Assembly: GCA_021813655.1 (NCBI GenBank)
Contig: JAKAJU010000084.1
Coordinates: 1-39,697 of the forward strand
Direction: 5' to 3'
Source: Chloroflexota bacterium
GTDB lineage: Bacteria; Chloroflexota; Limnocylindria; Limnocylindrales; CSP1-4
DNA: 39,697 nt
In this document: positions 26,158 to 36,675 of the stretch, one piece after another
How positions within the stretch are numbered: the stretch's first letter is position 1
How the letters are laid out: each line of letters begins with the position of its first letter
The notes under the pieces: model-generated
Databases searched by the model: none
What the model was told of the DNA's origin: nothing
What the model saw: only the letters and a program-made list of their open reading frames with translations
Position numbers and translations under genes: made by a program

Positions 26158-26207
26158 TCCCCGGTCAGAGAAAGACGTCCGTAGATTCGTTCGTGTCGGA
26201 GGACCGA

Positions 26208-26477
26208 GTGCCGCTCAGCCGGGAGGAGAGGGATCGCCTCGTCGTGGAGTACGCGACGCATGAGGGCGATACCGGATCGCCGGAGGTCCAGATCGCGCTT
26301 CTCACCGAGCGCGTCAAGGAGCTCACGGAGCACCTGAAGCAGTTCCCGCGGGACAACCATTCCCGGCGCGGCCTTCTCAAGCTCGTGGGGCAGCGCCGCC
26401 GCCTTCTCGCGTACCTCGTGCGCAAGGACCCGGCCCGCTACCGCGCCGTCATCGGACGGCTCGGACTCCGCCGCTAG
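26208..26477 (+). CDS. rpsO: 30S ribosomal protein S15
   Basis: This 89-residue S15 binds 16S rRNA early in assembly. Motifs: [36 protein letters not shown] and the end [13 protein letters not shown]. The track starts at GTG 26193, but GTG 26208 ([12 protein letters not shown]) gives the canonical 89-residue length and aligns with the usual S15 start. It also has GGAGGA just upstream (4-base spacer). rpsO-pnp pairing is conserved in most bacteria. Confidence 0.95.
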
Positions 26478-26579: not shown

Positions 26580-29165
26580 GTGCCCGTTCATTCCGTCTCC
26601 GCCGAGTTCGGTGGTCGTGCGCTGACCATCGAGACCGGTAAGCTCGCGCGCCTCGCCGGCGGCGCCGTCACCGTGCGCTTCGGCGACACGGTCGTGCTCG
26701 GGACCGCCAACCGGTCCGAGCCGCGCCCCGGCCTCGACTTCTTCCCGCTCACCGTCGACTTCGAGGAGCGGATGTACGCGGCCGGGAAGATCCCCGGCGG
26801 CTTCATCAAGCGCGAGTCCCGACCGTCGGAGGGCGCGATCCTCGCCGCACGCCTCACCGACCGCCCGATCCGCCCGCTCTTCCCCGAGGGGTACAAGGAC
26901 GACATCCAGATCGTCATCACCGTGATGTCGACGGACCAGGAGAACGACCCCGACGTCCTCGGCACCGTCGCCGCCAGCGCGGCCCTCACGATCAGCGAGA
27001 TCCCGTTCCAGGGCCCCATCGGCGCGGTTCGGGTGGGCCGGATCGGCGGCGAGTTCGTCGTCAACCCCACCGTCGAGCAGCTCGCCGAGTCGGAGCTCGA
27101 CCTCATCGTCAGCGGCACCCGCGACGCGATCATGATGGTCGAGGCCGGCGCGAAGCTCGTCTCCGAGGACACGATGGCCGAGGCCATCCTCTTCGGACAC
27201 CGCGCGCTCCAGCCGCTCATCGACCTGCAGGACCAGCTGCGCGAGCTCGTCGGCAAGCCCAAGAAGCTCCCGTTCCTCGAGCCGGGCACCGAGTCCGTCC
27301 TGCGCTTCGTGGACCTCGTCGAGGCCGGCCGCGACCTCGTGGTGGTCGACGTGGAGACGACGGGCCGCGACCCGAAGATGGCCGATCTCGTCGAGATCGC
27401 CGCCGTCCGGATCCGCAAGGGCAAGGTGGTCGACCGCTGGTCCACGCTCGTGGACCCGGGCCGGCCCGTGGTCGGTGCGCAGATGCACGGCCTCACGGAC
27501 AAGGACCTCAAGGGCGCTCCCGCCCCGAAGGCTGCCGCGGACACGTTCCTCGACTTCGCGGGCGACGCCGTCGTCGTGGGCCACAACGTCGGCTTCGACC
27601 TCGGCTTCATCGAGGAGGCGCTCGGCGGCTACCGGTTCCCGTACGACCGCTACCTCGACACGCTCGTGCTGACGCGCGAGGCGTACCCCGACCTCGAGTC
27701 CTACAAGCTCGGCGACCTGTCGCGCTTCTTCGGCATCGAGCTCCAGAACGCCCACCGCGCGCTCCCGGACGCCGAGGCGACCGCCGCGCTCGTCCTCCGT
27801 CTCGCGTCCGACCTCGGCCCGCGCCTCGCGCAGCTGAAGGAGGGGATCGCGGCCTCGATCCGCGCCAATCGCGACGCGAACGGGGACCCGAAGGCTCTGC
27901 TCGAGGCGGCCCGCCGCCAGGCGCGCGTCGGGAAGGCGCTCTTCGGGCTCGTCCACAAGAAGACGGCCCGGAAGCTCACGCTCGACGAGGGCGTCCGCAT
28001 GGACGGCCGTGCGATCGACGAGATCCGGCCGATCAGCGTCGAAGTCGGCCTCCTTCCGCGAGCGCACGGCTCCGGCCTCTTCACCCGCGGCGAGACGCAG
28101 GCGCTGACGGTCTGCACGCTGGGTCCGTCCTCGGACGTCCAGCGGATCGACACGATCAGCCCGGAGACCGAGAAGCGGTACCTCCACCACTACAACATGC
28201 CGCCCTACAGCACCGGCGAGAACAAGCCGATGCGCGGCCCGGGCCGGCGCGAGATCGGGCACGGCAACCTCGCCGAGCGCGCCCTCGTGCCCGTCCTCCC
28301 GGACCACGAGGAGTTCCCGTACGTCGTCCGCCTCGTGAGCGAGTGCGTCACGTCGAACGGCTCCACGTCCATGGCGTCGACCTGCGGCTCCACGCTCGCG
28401 CTCATGGACGCGGGCGTCCCGATCAAGGCGCCGGTCGCCGGCGCGGCGATGGGCCTCATGAGCGAGCCGGACGGCCGCTTCGCGGTCCTGACCGACATCC
28501 TCGGCAAGGAGGATGCCTTCGGCGACATGGACTTCAAGGTCACCGGGACCTCGGACGGCATCACCGCCCTCCAGATGGACATCAAGGTCAAGGGCATCAA
28601 CGAGGAGATCATCCGGAGCGGCCTCGCGAAGGCGCGCGCCGCCCGGCTCTTCATCCTCGACAAGATGCTCGAGGTCCTGCCCGAGACCCGCGAGACGATG
28701 TCCGACTTCGCCCCGCGGATCATCACCATCAAGATCAACCCCGAGAAGATCCGGGACATCATCGGCAAGGGCGGCTCGATGATCCGGAAGATCCAGGAGG
28801 AGACGGGGACCGAGATCAACGTCGAGGACGACGGCACCGTGGAGATCGCGGCCGTCTCCGGCGAGAACTCGCGCAAGGCAATCCAGTGGATCGAGAGCCT
28901 CACGCGCGAGGTCGAGGTCGGCGCCCTCTACCTGGGCAAGGTCACGCGGATCATGAACTTCGGCGCGTTCGTCGAGATCCTCCCGGGCAAGGAGGGTCTC
29001 GTCCGGATCGGCGAGCTCGCCGACTACCACGTCCCGACCGTGGAGGACGTCGTCTCCGTCGGGGACGAGGTGATGGTCGTCGTCACCGAGATCGACCGGC
29101 AGGGGCGCGTCAACCTCTCGCGGAAGGCCGCCATGCAGCGGCATCTCGCGAAGGACGGCCGCTGA
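26580..29165 (+). CDS. pnp: Polynucleotide phosphorylase with inserted DEDDh 3'-5' exonuclease domain
   Basis: This is an 861-residue protein, against ~700 for ordinary PNPase. First RNase PH domain ~10-228 (ERMYAAGKIPGGFIKRESRP, FGHRALQPLIDLQDQL). At ~242-412 there is a complete DnaQ/PolC-like exonuclease: VVVDVETTGRDPK (D257, E259), GHNVGFDLGFIEEAL (D340) and NAHRALPDAEATAAL (H392, D397). A helical linker and the second RNase PH domain follow, with FTRGETQALTV, SNGSTSMASTCGS (phosphate site) and GKEDAFGDMDFKV (catalytic Asp residues and Lys). KH (IIGKGGSMIRKI) and S1 domains end it. All catalytic residues of both activities appear intact. The insertion is in frame, keeps the local composition, and replaces much of the usual all-alpha linker. 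The start GTG 26580 has AGGAGGAG upstream. Confidence 0.95.
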   Translation: MPVHSVSAEFGGRALTIETGKLARLAGGAVTVRFGDTVVLGTANRSEPRPGLDFFPLTVDFEERMYAAGKIPGGFIKRESRPSEGAILAARLTDRPIRPLFPEGYKDDIQIVITVMSTDQENDPDVLGTVAASAALTISEIPFQGPIGAVRVGRIGGEFVVNPTVEQLAESELDLIVSGTRDAIMMVEAGAKLVSEDTMAEAILFGHRALQPLIDLQDQLRELVGKPKKLPFLEPGTESVLRFVDLVEAGRDLVVVDVETTGRDPKMADLVEIAAVRIRKGKVVDRWSTLVDPGRPVVGAQMHGLTDKDLKGAPAPKAAADTFLDFAGDAVVVGHNVGFDLGFIEEALGGYRFPYDRYLDTLVLTREAYPDLESYKLGDLSRFFGIELQNAHRALPDAEATAALVLRLASDLGPRLAQLKEGIAASIRANRDANGDPKALLEAARRQARVGKALFGLVHKKTARKLTLDEGVRMDGRAIDEIRPISVEVGLLPRAHGSGLFTRGETQALTVCTLGPSSDVQRIDTISPETEKRYLHHYNMPPYSTGENKPMRGPGRREIGHGNLAERALVPVLPDHEEFPYVVRLVSECVTSNGSTSMASTCGSTLALMDAGVPIKAPVAGAAMGLMSEPDGRFAVLTDILGKEDAFGDMDFKVTGTSDGITALQMDIKVKGINEEIIRSGLAKARAARLFILDKMLEVLPETRETMSDFAPRIITIKINPEKIRDIIGKGGSMIRKIQEETGTEINVEDDGTVEIAAVSGENSRKAIQWIESLTREVEVGALYLGKVTRIMNFGAFVEILPGKEGLVRIGELADYHVPTVEDVVSVGDEVMVVVTEIDRQGRVNLSRKAAMQRHLAKDGR

Positions 29166-32816: not shown

Positions 32817-35233
32817 TGACCTCGCCGCAGCGCCGCTCGACGAGGTCGACCTCGCGGTCGACCTCGTCCCGGAGCACGTCGCGGACACGGCGCCGGCCCA
32901 CGTACGCCGCGCCGACCGTCGACGTCGCCCCGGAGGTCATCCGCTCGATCGTCGGGATCGTCCTCATGGTCCTCGGCGCGATCCTCCTCATCGGCCTGAT
33001 CCTCCCCGGGAAGGGGGTCCTCACGGACTGGATCCGCGACATCTTCGCGCCGTGGTTCGGGACTGGACGATACCTGCTGCCCTTCCTCCTCCTCGCGCTC
33101 GGCATCTACGTGGAGAGAGTGGGGAGGCGCGCCGGCTGGGGCTGGACGCTCCTCGGGGTCGCGATCGCGTTCGTCGGCCTGCTCGGGGTCGTCGCCATCG
33201 TCGTGGACGCGGGGTACCTCGGCGGCCGCAGCGGCGGCCGGATCGGCGCCTTCATCGCCGAGACTCTCTCGCCGCTCATCACCGCACCGGGGACGCTCAT
33301 CGTCAGCCTCGCGATCCTCGTCATCGGGGTCCTCATCGCCCTCAACGCCACGCTCGGCTCGCTTCTCCGCCCGATGTGGGACGCCGCCCGGACGACGGGC
33401 GGGGTCCTGCTCGCACCCCGCCCCGAGAACGGCGGGCCGGCGTCGGCGGCGGACGGGAAGGCGCCCGCCGCGAGGAACGGCGCGCGGCCGGGCGACGACA
33501 CAGCCTCCGCGGCCGGGTCCCGGACGGGGCGCGAGGTGAACGGGCGCCCGGAGGTTCCGCTCCCGATGCCGTCGCCGGGATCTGCGCCGGTCTCCGCCGT
33601 CTTCGGACCGGTTCCCGATCTCGCCGCGGCCGCGGCGGTCGGGGGGGCCGTGGGTGTCGCGGGATCCGTGGCGGCCGCTGGCGGACGCGACGCCCTCGGC
33701 CGGGACGTGGCCGCGATCGCGGGCGCGTCCGACCTCGACGGCGATGGGGTGACGGAAGCCTCCGACGCGCCGCAACCCCGCGTGCACCGGCCGTACGCGC
33801 TGCCGCCCCTGACGCTCCTCGACGACATCGCCCTCCGGAGCACGGACACGGGGATGGACCACGCGCGCAACGCCCAGATCATCGAGGCGAAGCTCGCGAG
33901 CTTCAACATCCCGGTGACCGTGTCGGGATGGAACGCCGGGCCGGTCGTCACGCAGTACGAGGTGACGCCCGATCCGTCGGTGAAGGTCAGCCGGATCGAG
34001 TCCCTCTCCGACGACCTCGCGATGGCGCTCGCCGCGCGGACGATCCGGATCGAGGCGCCGATCCCCGGCAAGACCGTCGTGGGCATCGAGATCCCCAACA
34101 TGGACTTCAACGTCGTCGGACTCCGGCGGATCCTCGAGGACCCGGACGTGCTGCGCGCCCCGTCGAAGCTCGCGTTCGCGCTGGGGCGCGACGTGGCCGG
34201 GCACGCGCGTGCCGCGGACCTGGCGAAGATGCCGCACCTCCTCATCGCGGGCGCGACGGGCTCGGGCAAGAGCGTCATGGTCAACGCGCTCATCACGAGC
34301 CTTCTCGTCCGCGCGACCCCCGACGAGGTCCGGCTCATCCTCGTCGACCCCAAGCGGGTCGAGCTCGCCGACTACAACGGGGTCCCGCACCTGCTGGTCC
34401 CGGTCGTCACCGAAGCAAGCCGCGCGAAGGCCGCCCTCATCTGGTGCGTCCGCGAGATGGAGAATCGCTACCGACGATTCGCCGGGGCGACGGCCCGGAA
34501 CATCACCGCATACAACGAGACGCGCGAGGATCCGGCCGACCGCCTTCCGTACATCGTCATCATCGTCGATGAGCTGGCCGACCTCATGATGCGCGACGGC
34601 CGGAGCACCGAGGAGCCGATCGTCATGCTCGCCCAGAAGGCGCGCGCCACGGGCATCCACCTCGTGCTCGCGACCCAGCGGCCCTCGGTCAACGTCGTCA
34701 CGGGTCTCATCAAGGCGAACTTCCCGTCGCGGATCGCGTTCGCGATGGCGAGCCAGATCGACAGCCGGACGATCCTCGACGCCCCGGGCGCGGAGGACCT
34801 CATCGGTCGCGGCGACATGCTGTTCCAGCCGTCCGACCTGCCGCGGCCGATCCGTCTCCAGGGGGTCTTCGTCTCCGACCGCGAGATCCGCGGCGTCACC
34901 GCGCACTGGCGTGCCGAGGCGGAGCCGCACTACGACCTCTCGATCGTGGAGAGCGACGAGGAGTCGACGGGGCGCGTCGAGGACGTGGAGGACGCGGACA
35001 CCGACCGCCTCTTCGCGGACGCCGTGGGCGTCATCCAGGAGTACGACCGCGCGTCCGCCTCGCTCCTCCAGCGCCGCCTGAAGATCGGCTACGCGCGCGC
35101 GGCCCGGATCATCGACCAGCTCGAGGCGCACGGGTACATCGGGCCCTTCGACGGCTCGAACGCTCGGCAGGTCCTGCGACGCGAGGTGCCCGAGACCCGG
35201 GGAGGCGGCGACTCCGGCGAGGACGATCTGTGA
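32816..35233 (+). CDS. ftsK: DNA translocase FtsK/SpoIIIE
   Basis: This 805-residue hexameric motor clears chromosome ends through the septum. The N-terminus is Ser/Arg/Thr-rich and basic. About four membrane segments follow within residues ~40-185 (SIVGIVLMVLGAILLIGLIL is the first). A Pro/Ala-rich linker (~190-330) precedes the motor. The motor has Walker A GATGSGKSV (479-486), DPKRVELADYNGVPHL, and Walker B YIVIIVDELADLMM. A C-terminal gamma winged helix (ASASLLQRRLKIGYARAARIIDQLE) reads KOPS/SRS-like sites in homologues. The length is typical of SpoIIIE, shorter than E. coli FtsK. It overlaps rnj upstream and rodZ downstream (GTGA). Confidence 0.97.
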   Translation: MTSPQRRSTRSTSRSTSSRSTSRTRRRPTYAAPTVDVAPEVIRSIVGIVLMVLGAILLIGLILPGKGVLTDWIRDIFAPWFGTGRYLLPFLLLALGIYVERVGRRAGWGWTLLGVAIAFVGLLGVVAIVVDAGYLGGRSGGRIGAFIAETLSPLITAPGTLIVSLAILVIGVLIALNATLGSLLRPMWDAARTTGGVLLAPRPENGGPASAADGKAPAARNGARPGDDTASAAGSRTGREVNGRPEVPLPMPSPGSAPVSAVFGPVPDLAAAAAVGGAVGVAGSVAAAGGRDALGRDVAAIAGASDLDGDGVTEASDAPQPRVHRPYALPPLTLLDDIALRSTDTGMDHARNAQIIEAKLASFNIPVTVSGWNAGPVVTQYEVTPDPSVKVSRIESLSDDLAMALAARTIRIEAPIPGKTVVGIEIPNMDFNVVGLRRILEDPDVLRAPSKLAFALGRDVAGHARAADLAKMPHLLIAGATGSGKSVMVNALITSLLVRATPDEVRLILVDPKRVELADYNGVPHLLVPVVTEASRAKAALIWCVREMENRYRRFAGATARNITAYNETREDPADRLPYIVIIVDELADLMMRDGRSTEEPIVMLAQKARATGIHLVLATQRPSVNVVTGLIKANFPSRIAFAMASQIDSRTILDAPGAEDLIGRGDMLFQPSDLPRPIRLQGVFVSDREIRGVTAHWRAEAEPHYDLSIVESDEESTGRVEDVEDADTDRLFADAVGVIQEYDRASASLLQRRLKIGYARAARIIDQLEAHGYIGPFDGSNARQVLRREVPETRGGGDSGEDDL

Positions 35234-36675
35234 GCTCCCGCGACGACCAGGCGCGACCCCGGGGGCCCGGGGGGTTCCGGCGGCCGTCGCTGACCCGACC
35301 CCGACTCCCGGCGAGCATCCCGGGTGACCCGGGCAGGTTCGTGAACCGGGTCCGCGGCGAGCGCACGCCCGCGCCCGTCCGCCCGGCCGAGCCGCCGCTC
35401 GGCGAGCGCCTGGCCGCGGCACGGGAGCACAAGGGAGTCGACCTCGCCCGCGCGGAGCGGGACACGAAGATCCGGGTGCGGTACCTCGCGGCCCTCGAGC
35501 GGGGCGACTACCGGGACCTTCCCGGCTCGGTGTACACGAAGGGGTTCCTTCGCAACTACGCCCAGTACCTTGGCCTCGACCCCGACGACGTCCTCCGCCA
35601 GTGGCGGCGCGAGCGCGGGGAGACCGATGCGGATCCGGTCGTCGTCGTCCCCCGCGGCCTCGACGCGCCGCGCCCCACGGTCACGATCGGACGCGGCACG
35701 ATCTTCGCGGTCCTGCTCGCCGTCGGCGTCGTCGTCTTTGCCGGCTATCTCGGCATGCAGCTCATCCGCTTCTCGCAGCCCCCGACGATCGCGATCACCG
35801 ACCCGCTCGACGCGGTCATGGAGGTCTCGCCCACGGCGACCACCTATACCCTGCGCGGAACGACGATCGCGGGTGCATCCGTCGCGATCGACACGCCTGG
35901 CCGGGAGACGGTCCGCGTCACGGCCGGGCCCGACGGCCGCTGGTCCGCCGACGTGGCGCTCGTGCGCGGGCGCAACCAGTTCGACGTCACCGCGACCGAC
36001 GCCGACACCGGCAAGACGAGCCCGACACCGGCGCGCGTGTACATCACCGTCCCGATCGGCGGGGAGGCGGCCCCCCAGGTCTCCCTCGACTCGCCGGCGG
36101 ACGGGGCGACGTTCGATGCCGGACCGGTCGTCGTGAAGGGGCTCGCGCAGGGCGCGCAGACGGTCACCGTCAGCTCCGCGTACCTCGGGCCGCCCGCCGG
36201 GGCGCCGGCGAGCGCGAAGTCCGTCACGCCTCCGCCGGCCCCCAAGCCCGCGCAGGTCGCCGTGGGCGCGGACGGATCGTTCAGCGTCTCCGTCCCGCTC
36301 ACGTCGGGCCGCTGGACGCTCACGATCACGGCGCAGAGCGCGGCCGGGAAGTCGAGCCAGCCGCTGACCCGGACGGTCACCATCGCCTTCTCGGGAGTCT
36401 CCGTCGTCGTCAAGCTCGAGGGCGGCAAGGCGTGGCTCAAGGCGTGGGTCGACGGGAAGGTCGACCCACGCACCGGCGACGGCGGCAAGGTCATCGCGGA
36501 CGGCAGGTCGCTCGTCTTCACCGGGGGGAAGACCGTCGAGATCCGGAGCGCCGACCCGACGGTCACGTACGTGACCGTCAACGGGAAGGACCTCGGGGCG
36601 ATGGGGGACACCGTCCAGCCCGAGACCTGGCTGTACACGCCGAAGGGCGCGCCCAAGAAGACCAAGCACGAATGA
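35230..36675 (+). CDS. rodZ: RodZ-like cell shape protein (HTH, one TM, DUF4115)
   Basis: This is a 481-residue protein. After a basic disordered N-terminus comes a Cro/CI-type helix-turn-helix (~57-125: LGERLAAAREHKGVDLARAE, YLAALERGDYRDLPGSVYTK). A single membrane segment follows at ~158-180 (IFAVLLAVGVVVFAGYLG). The extracytoplasmic part has Ig-like stretches (~190-390: TYTLRGTTIAGASVAIDTPG, DSPADGATFDAGPVVVKG), more than usual for RodZ. It ends in a DUF4115-like domain (VVKLEGGKAWLKAWVDGK). RodZ links MreB to the elongasome; no mreB is in this window. It overlaps ftsK (GTGA) and cinA (ATGA). Confidence 0.88.
   Translation: MSSRDDQARPRGPGGFRRPSLTRPRLPASIPGDPGRFVNRVRGERTPAPVRPAEPPLGERLAAAREHKGVDLARAERDTKIRVRYLAALERGDYRDLPGSVYTKGFLRNYAQYLGLDPDDVLRQWRRERGETDADPVVVVPRGLDAPRPTVTIGRGTIFAVLLAVGVVVFAGYLGMQLIRFSQPPTIAITDPLDAVMEVSPTATTYTLRGTTIAGASVAIDTPGRETVRVTAGPDGRWSADVALVRGRNQFDVTATDADTGKTSPTPARVYITVPIGGEAAPQVSLDSPADGATFDAGPVVVKGLAQGAQTVTVSSAYLGPPAGAPASAKSVTPPPAPKPAQVAVGADGSFSVSVPLTSGRWTLTITAQSAAGKSSQPLTRTVTIAFSGVSVVVKLEGGKAWLKAWVDGKVDPRTGDGGKVIADGRSLVFTGGKTVEIRSADPTVTYVTVNGKDLGAMGDTVQPETWLYTPKGAPKKTKHE

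Follow-up and report, generated by a model that had tools for sequence, protein, structure and literature searches.

From bacteria to mitochondria, polynucleotide phosphorylase (PNPase) is considered to have kept one architecture, and in every solved PNPase known to us a helical linker stands between the two RNase PH-like cores. In the eukaryotic RNA exosome a PNPase-like ring is combined with the hydrolytic 3'-5' nucleases Rrp6 and Rrp44, the former being a DEDD-type enzyme. The helical domain of E. coli PNPase lies on the ring face opposite the S1 and KH domains and lines a side pore, which was proposed as the route for phosphate to enter and for nucleoside diphosphates (NDPs) to leave (PMC2723993). 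A further group of described enzymes are the ExoDinG proteins (DinG of S. aureus, B. subtilis and Listeria; PDB 8zef and 9ii8). S. aureus ExoDinG is active on RNA and DNA (PMC11981726). Listeria DinG is a 3'-5' exonuclease on both nucleic acids that selectively starts the decay of unprocessed rRNA; in vitro it prefers DNA, and mutation of the helicase ATP motif leaves its exonuclease working (PMC12774634). The B. subtilis enzyme favours DNA and RNA-DNA hybrids as substrates: it degrades single-stranded DNA as well as the RNA of hybrids, and it removes R-loops; RNA outside hybrids is cut only when Mn2+ is supplied (PMC12525004).

Here, we describe an enzyme from a Chloroflexota bacterium (assembly GCA_021813655.1) that is clearly a PNPase but has a second nuclease where the linker normally stands. 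The window, i.e. the whole stretch of DNA that was analysed, comprises 39,697 nucleotides of contig JAKAJU010000084.1. Its pnp gene encodes the sole PNPase of the source genome, the next matches being an S1 protein and an RNase PH-like protein with 31-38% identity. Pfam detects two RNase_PH domains, RNase_PH_C, RNase_T, KH and S1 in the 861-residue protein. RNase_T (PF00929) covers residues 254-404 with 93.0 bits (cut-off 24, E 3.8e-26) and the segment 27303-27830 alone reaches 95.8 bits against the same cut-off, and NCBIfam polynuc_phos (TIGR03591) matches with 956.6 bits (cut-off 525) in two stretches flanking the exonuclease. The original prediction, made from the letters and their translation, had described one uninterrupted frame with the five DEDDh residues D257, E259, D340, H392 and D397; the frame indeed starts with GTG and is free of internal stops, the five residues are found at these positions, and the predicted limits of the exonuclease (residues 242-417) are correct to within about ten residues. 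Such a match lies well outside what chance would produce. The features are listed below; PNPases of this type in related genomes are called carriers.

26193-26477, + strand: rpsO, directly upstream of pnp and its constant partner in carriers and non-carriers
26580-29165, + strand: pnp, PNPase with a DEDDh exonuclease in place of most of the helical linker, 861 residues
26580-27209, + strand: first RNase PH-like core, residues 1-210 (Pfam RNase_PH/RNase_PH_C; TIGR03591)
27210-27332, + strand: linker into the exonuclease, residues 211-251, consisting of the last helix of core 1 and a variable connector (alignment with normal PNPases)
27333-27815, + strand: DEDDh 3'-5' exonuclease domain, residues 252-412 (PF00929; AlphaFold fragment; Foldseek to DinG/PolC)
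27348-27356, + strand: DxE motif with D257 and E259, invariant in 62 carriers
27597-27599, + strand: D340, invariant in 62 carriers
27753-27770, + strand: HxxxxD motif with H392 (62/62) and D397 (60/62, His in two)
27816-27965, + strand: helical connector 3' of the exonuclease, residues 413-462, predicted to prolong the last exonuclease helix (AlphaFold fragment helices 197-232, 240-251 and 255-273, fragment numbering)
27930-28010, + strand: remnant of the PNPase helical domain, residues 451-477, equal to positions 54-80 of the 81 in PF03726
27966-28694, + strand: second, catalytic RNase PH-like core, residues 463-705, with R556, R557, H561, S595-T596-S597, D645, D651 and K653 (catalytic residues in 62/62)
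28722-28895, + strand: KH domain (Pfam)
28911-29126, + strand: S1 domain (Pfam)

With bacterial PNPase (TIGR03591) this protein has in common the two RNase PH cores, KH, S1, all catalytic residues, the rpsO-pnp context and its presence as sole copy, whereas it differs in its length (861 instead of about 700 residues) and in the first two thirds of the helical linker, which are represented by the DEDDh exonuclease. Normal PNPases from this class and phylum have about 70 residues from the end of core 1 (..GKPK) to the start of core 2 (..RPDGR), carriers more than 200. The PNPase helical domain (PF03726) is complete in normal PNPases, whereas in carriers just positions ~48/54-80 of 81 are left; in the 861-residue protein the match comprises positions 54-80 at E 0.075 instead of a complete linker. 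The first ~50 of the 81 positions are substituted by the exonuclease, the last ~27-33 remain, and a helical connector of about 50 residues follows. From this remnant and the enlarged spacing it is evident that the exonuclease stands where the linker's first two thirds would be. It had been predicted as an addition; instead, it replaces about two thirds of the helical domain, and the protein is a variant within the PNPase family and not outside it. As predicted, no description of a PNPase with an inserted second, hydrolytic nuclease was found in a corpus of 5.39 million open-access papers. Such an exchange raises the question of the purpose of a helical linker that can be replaced.

In an AlphaFold2 model of the exonuclease fragment with its linkers (mean pLDDT 82.9, pTM 0.79), D257 and E259 close strand 1, D340 opens a helix, and the last long helix, which continues into the following connector, is directly preceded by H392 and has D397 in its initial part. 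This layout equals the DEDDh arrangement described for ExoDinG (PMC11981726). The best Foldseek match is S. aureus DinG (4.1e-12), then PolC (1.3e-11), followed by DnaQ, epsilon, RNase T, Cas2-DEDDh and ExoX, and a profile search of PDB sequences agrees on these relatives. Ranked by score, the nearest exonucleases belong to exo-GIY-YIG proteins (PRK07883 type) of other Chloroflexota, to PolC and to ExoDinG, with the top profile score for exo-GIY-YIG protein L183 (139.5 bits, 42% identity) and 156 bits for NCBIfam PRK07883.1-4. Orn-type families were absent among the 25 NCBIfam matches listed and among the solved structures matched, and the suggestion that the domain is PolC/epsilon-like rather than oligoribonuclease-like is upheld.

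All these relatives differ in what the exonuclease is joined to. Its identity to the exonucleases of ExoDinG proteins from this phylum is about 40%, but the PNPase protein has neither the helicase (PF13307) nor the FeS and Arch domains of ExoDinG, and its exonuclease is internal to PNPase. The similar exonuclease of the exo-GIY-YIG proteins (annotated as "DEDD exonuclease domain-containing protein") is fused to a GIY-YIG nuclease. With the proofreading exonucleases of PolC and DnaQ/epsilon the DEDDh family is shared (34% identity to the PolC exonuclease over 166 columns), but here the domain is unlinked to a DNA polymerase. Fusions of a DEDDh exonuclease with a GIY-YIG/UvrC-like nuclease were seen in several Chloroflexota (L182-L189 and L194); they are PRK07883-like and the closest to the PNPase exonuclease by score.

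In the source genome and in 37 of 57 carriers the PNPase exonuclease is the sole PF00929 match. In a family search RNB (RNase R/II) occurred in none of the 83 genomes of the class, and PF01612 (RNase D type) in none of 28 sampled genomes of the carrier families f1, f2 and f4. Loss of RNase R as a carrier-specific cause was considered and rejected, since RNB is rare throughout the phylum (13 of 111 near-complete genomes); Chloroflexota seem largely to manage without RNase R/II. The DinG helicase (PF13307) gives a strong match (1e-40 or better) in 16 of 16 non-carriers, mostly with an RNase_T domain encoded in one frame with it (ExoDinG), whereas canonical DinG is found in none of the 67 genomes of the carrier clade, the source genome included. 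Within this clade two genomes have distant helicases (about 1e-22) and two have matches below the cut-off; the former, in carriers (L173 on contig 27 of G092, L176 on contig 161 of G018), lie near other RNase_T proteins and are possibly mobile or defence-related. Across the phylum PF13307 occurs in 153 of 201 genomes, about 20 of the 48 that lack it are carriers, and DinG is also missing in about 15% of other Chloroflexota. The complementarity of ExoDinG and carriers is complete, yet it is one evolutionary event: it represents one branch of one tree and not 83 independent observations.

This complementary distribution suggested that the exonuclease descends from the class's own ExoDinG, but the phylogenetic reconstructions neither show nor reject this origin. 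The first exonuclease tree places the carrier exonuclease outside the DinG clade and the second leaves the branching unsettled. In AU tests none of three groupings was rejected (with the class ExoDinG p 0.50; with all DinG or with exo-GIY-YIG p 0.34). A domain transfer from ExoDinG into PNPase is possible.

As carriers are without the ExoDinG, RNase R/II and RNase D families, the likeliest role of the exonuclease would be to hydrolyse RNA 3' ends on which the ring performs poorly. With moderate confidence we read the protein as a single-chain phosphorolytic and hydrolytic 3'-5' exonuclease acting on such ends. The ancestor of the clade swapped the first two thirds of the helical linker once for a DEDDh exonuclease of the DinG, PolC or exo-GIY-YIG type. 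The RNase PH ring would perform phosphorolysis of single-stranded RNA fed from the KH/S1 side. The hydrolytic sites, three in number, metal-dependent and probably located by the side pore on the other face, would trim what the ring handles poorly, namely 3' ends that are structured or stable, rRNA that is still immature, and ends that a high NDP or a low phosphate level protects. The PNPase exonuclease would thereby supply a hydrolytic 3'-end function that is given elsewhere by ExoDinG, RNase R or RNase D. Like the eukaryotic exosome it would join a PNPase-like ring with hydrolytic 3'-5' nucleases; there, however, the nucleases are separate subunits on an inert ring, whereas here everything is in one polypeptide and the phosphorolytic site of the ring is kept. 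It would be a natural one-chain version of the ring-plus-hydrolase principle, in which the coupling of phosphorolysis and hydrolysis on one RNA becomes testable, and it raises the question of how bacteria without RNase R, RNase D and DinG manage. A more far-reaching version can be put forward tentatively: an exosome-like enzyme for RNA phosphorolysis and hydrolysis which, as sole DEDD-type 3'-5' exonuclease, took over the job of a lost ExoDinG and possibly its domain.

RNA as main substrate is what we infer, and the nearest enzymes (DinG and the PolC exonuclease) are often DNA-preferring, which by analogy would count against it. Instead, the main substrate of the exonuclease might be DNA or R-loop RNA, in a DinG-like replication-stress role for which PNPase serves as carrier and RNA-binding platform. 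Such a role would agree with the absence of ExoDinG exactly in the carrier clade, with the activities of B. subtilis DinG on single-stranded DNA, hybrid RNA and R-loops (PMC12525004), with DinG and PolC as nearest solved folds and with the position of the domain as the only one with RNase_T fold in the source genome. We consider it unlikely, though the strongest competitor, because the domain is fused to a housekeeping ring for RNA degradation whose KH/S1 and phosphorolytic site are intact, because the helicase part of DinG is gone and because the replicative DnaE has the HxH PHP motif typical of self-proofreading polymerases. The same motif makes it unlikely that the exonuclease is needed as a DNA proofreader. 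In genome G000 (contig 175) the replicative DnaE (L212) shows HLHTH and NDLHY PHP motifs and probably performs PHP-based proofreading; the genome has no separate DnaQ.

The placement of the exonuclease on the trimer was considered by homology, since the full-length AlphaFold model (16 sequences) has a pLDDT of 50; its exonuclease region is well scored and the model was not used otherwise. Judged by where E. coli PNPase has its helical domain, all three hydrolytic sites should lie on the far face and not at the RNA entry. They would thus probably lie opposite KH/S1, and the original proposal of sites near the channel entry is probably wrong (PMC2723993). This location would suit an Orn-like nanoRNase on the exit face that hydrolyses the limit oligonucleotides of 2-5 nt left by phosphorolysis, as would the lack of a separate Orn-type RNase_T domain in the source genome. 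Such a clean-up function is nevertheless rather improbable, since the gene of NrnA (DHH/DHHA1), which belongs to an established nanoRNase family, lies 3 kb upstream of pnp and the nearest relatives of the exonuclease are of DinG, PolC and exo-GIY-YIG types and not Orn. The gene order, nusA-infB-rbfA-nrnA-truB-ribF-rpsO-pnp, is a common housekeeping one with rpsO before pnp in carriers and non-carriers alike, and it is weak evidence for the RNA-decay neighbourhood that had been proposed. Downstream of ftsK the window also encodes an HTH_25 (RodZ-like) protein with Glucodextran_B/Ig-like domains (35230-36675).

Both active sites had been predicted as intact, and in the carriers they are conserved. 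The PNPase residues aligned with E. coli R398/R399, H403, the phosphate site S438/S439, D486, D492 and K494 are invariant in 62 of 62 distinct carriers; these equivalences were matched by alignment in this analysis, the functions of the E. coli residues being known (PMC2723993). The complete DEDDh set is kept in 60 of 62, because D397 is His in the pnp of two genomes of one genus (L012 of G027, L055 of G068) with the other four residues intact. This genus offers a natural test case on the need for catalysis. The exonuclease is under purifying selection, its NG86 dN/dS being 0.03-0.30 compared with 0.01-0.14 for core 1 (14 close pairs); the loosest region is the second connector. If the domain were a structural or regulatory stand-in for the helical linker with dispensable catalysis, the D397 exchange and the variability of the exonuclease in comparison with the PH cores (mean column identity 0.71 vs 0.86) would be in line with it. 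This is very improbable, as four residues are invariant in 62 carriers and the fifth in 60 despite a domain identity that drops to about 45% overall. Faster evolution than the cores with a retained active site is the pattern expected of a working enzyme, and catalytic activity of the exonuclease in the preferred single-chain phosphorolytic and hydrolytic enzyme is presumed.

Of 90 sampled genomes with a pnp match in families f1 and f2 (of the same order) and f4 of one class, probably Limnocylindria, at least 87, comprising about 30 genera, contain the exonuclease region; the remaining three matches are fragments that end before this region. In families f3 and f5 all 21 matched genomes show the split pattern of a normal PNPase, and this two-piece form also occurs in about 330 genomes from outside the class. 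No contiguous carrier-type match outside the class was among the matches listed for 400 genomes across the phylum, where carriers come at the top. A scan of 85,000 species, which picks up close relatives while distant independent inventions lie beyond its reach, yielded 15 Chloroflexota carriers and two exonuclease matches in Bacilli of a different kind (32% identical). On the PNPase-core tree with the exonuclease columns removed, where the mapping of the insertion had been suggested, carriers form one clade (100/99) separate from f3/f5, and their exonucleases also form one clade (100/99) in the exonuclease tree. It follows that the architecture was gained once, in the ancestor of the carrier Chloroflexota clade. 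A linker was exchanged for a second nuclease, and this form became fixed across the roughly 30 genera as their only PNPase. That the gene is an assembly or binning chimera, conceivable in view of source genomes that are mainly metagenome assemblies, can be dismissed: identical junctions recur in at least 87 genomes on contigs of up to 1 Mb, rpsO stands just upstream of pnp throughout the loci checked, and 15 named records derive from several projects.

One genome of family f4 (G133, 92% complete) has neither a PNPase match (E 1e-40) nor an RNase_T match, so that pnp either falls in an assembly gap or has truly been lost. An apparent KH-S1 "insertion" of 60 residues in L039 was rejected as a run of N. 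In a genome of another Chloroflexota family (G434) a normal-type PNPase frame of 840 residues (L097) contains an exact tandem copy of KH-S1; the two copies are identical in protein sequence, so this is either a very recent duplication or an assembly artefact.
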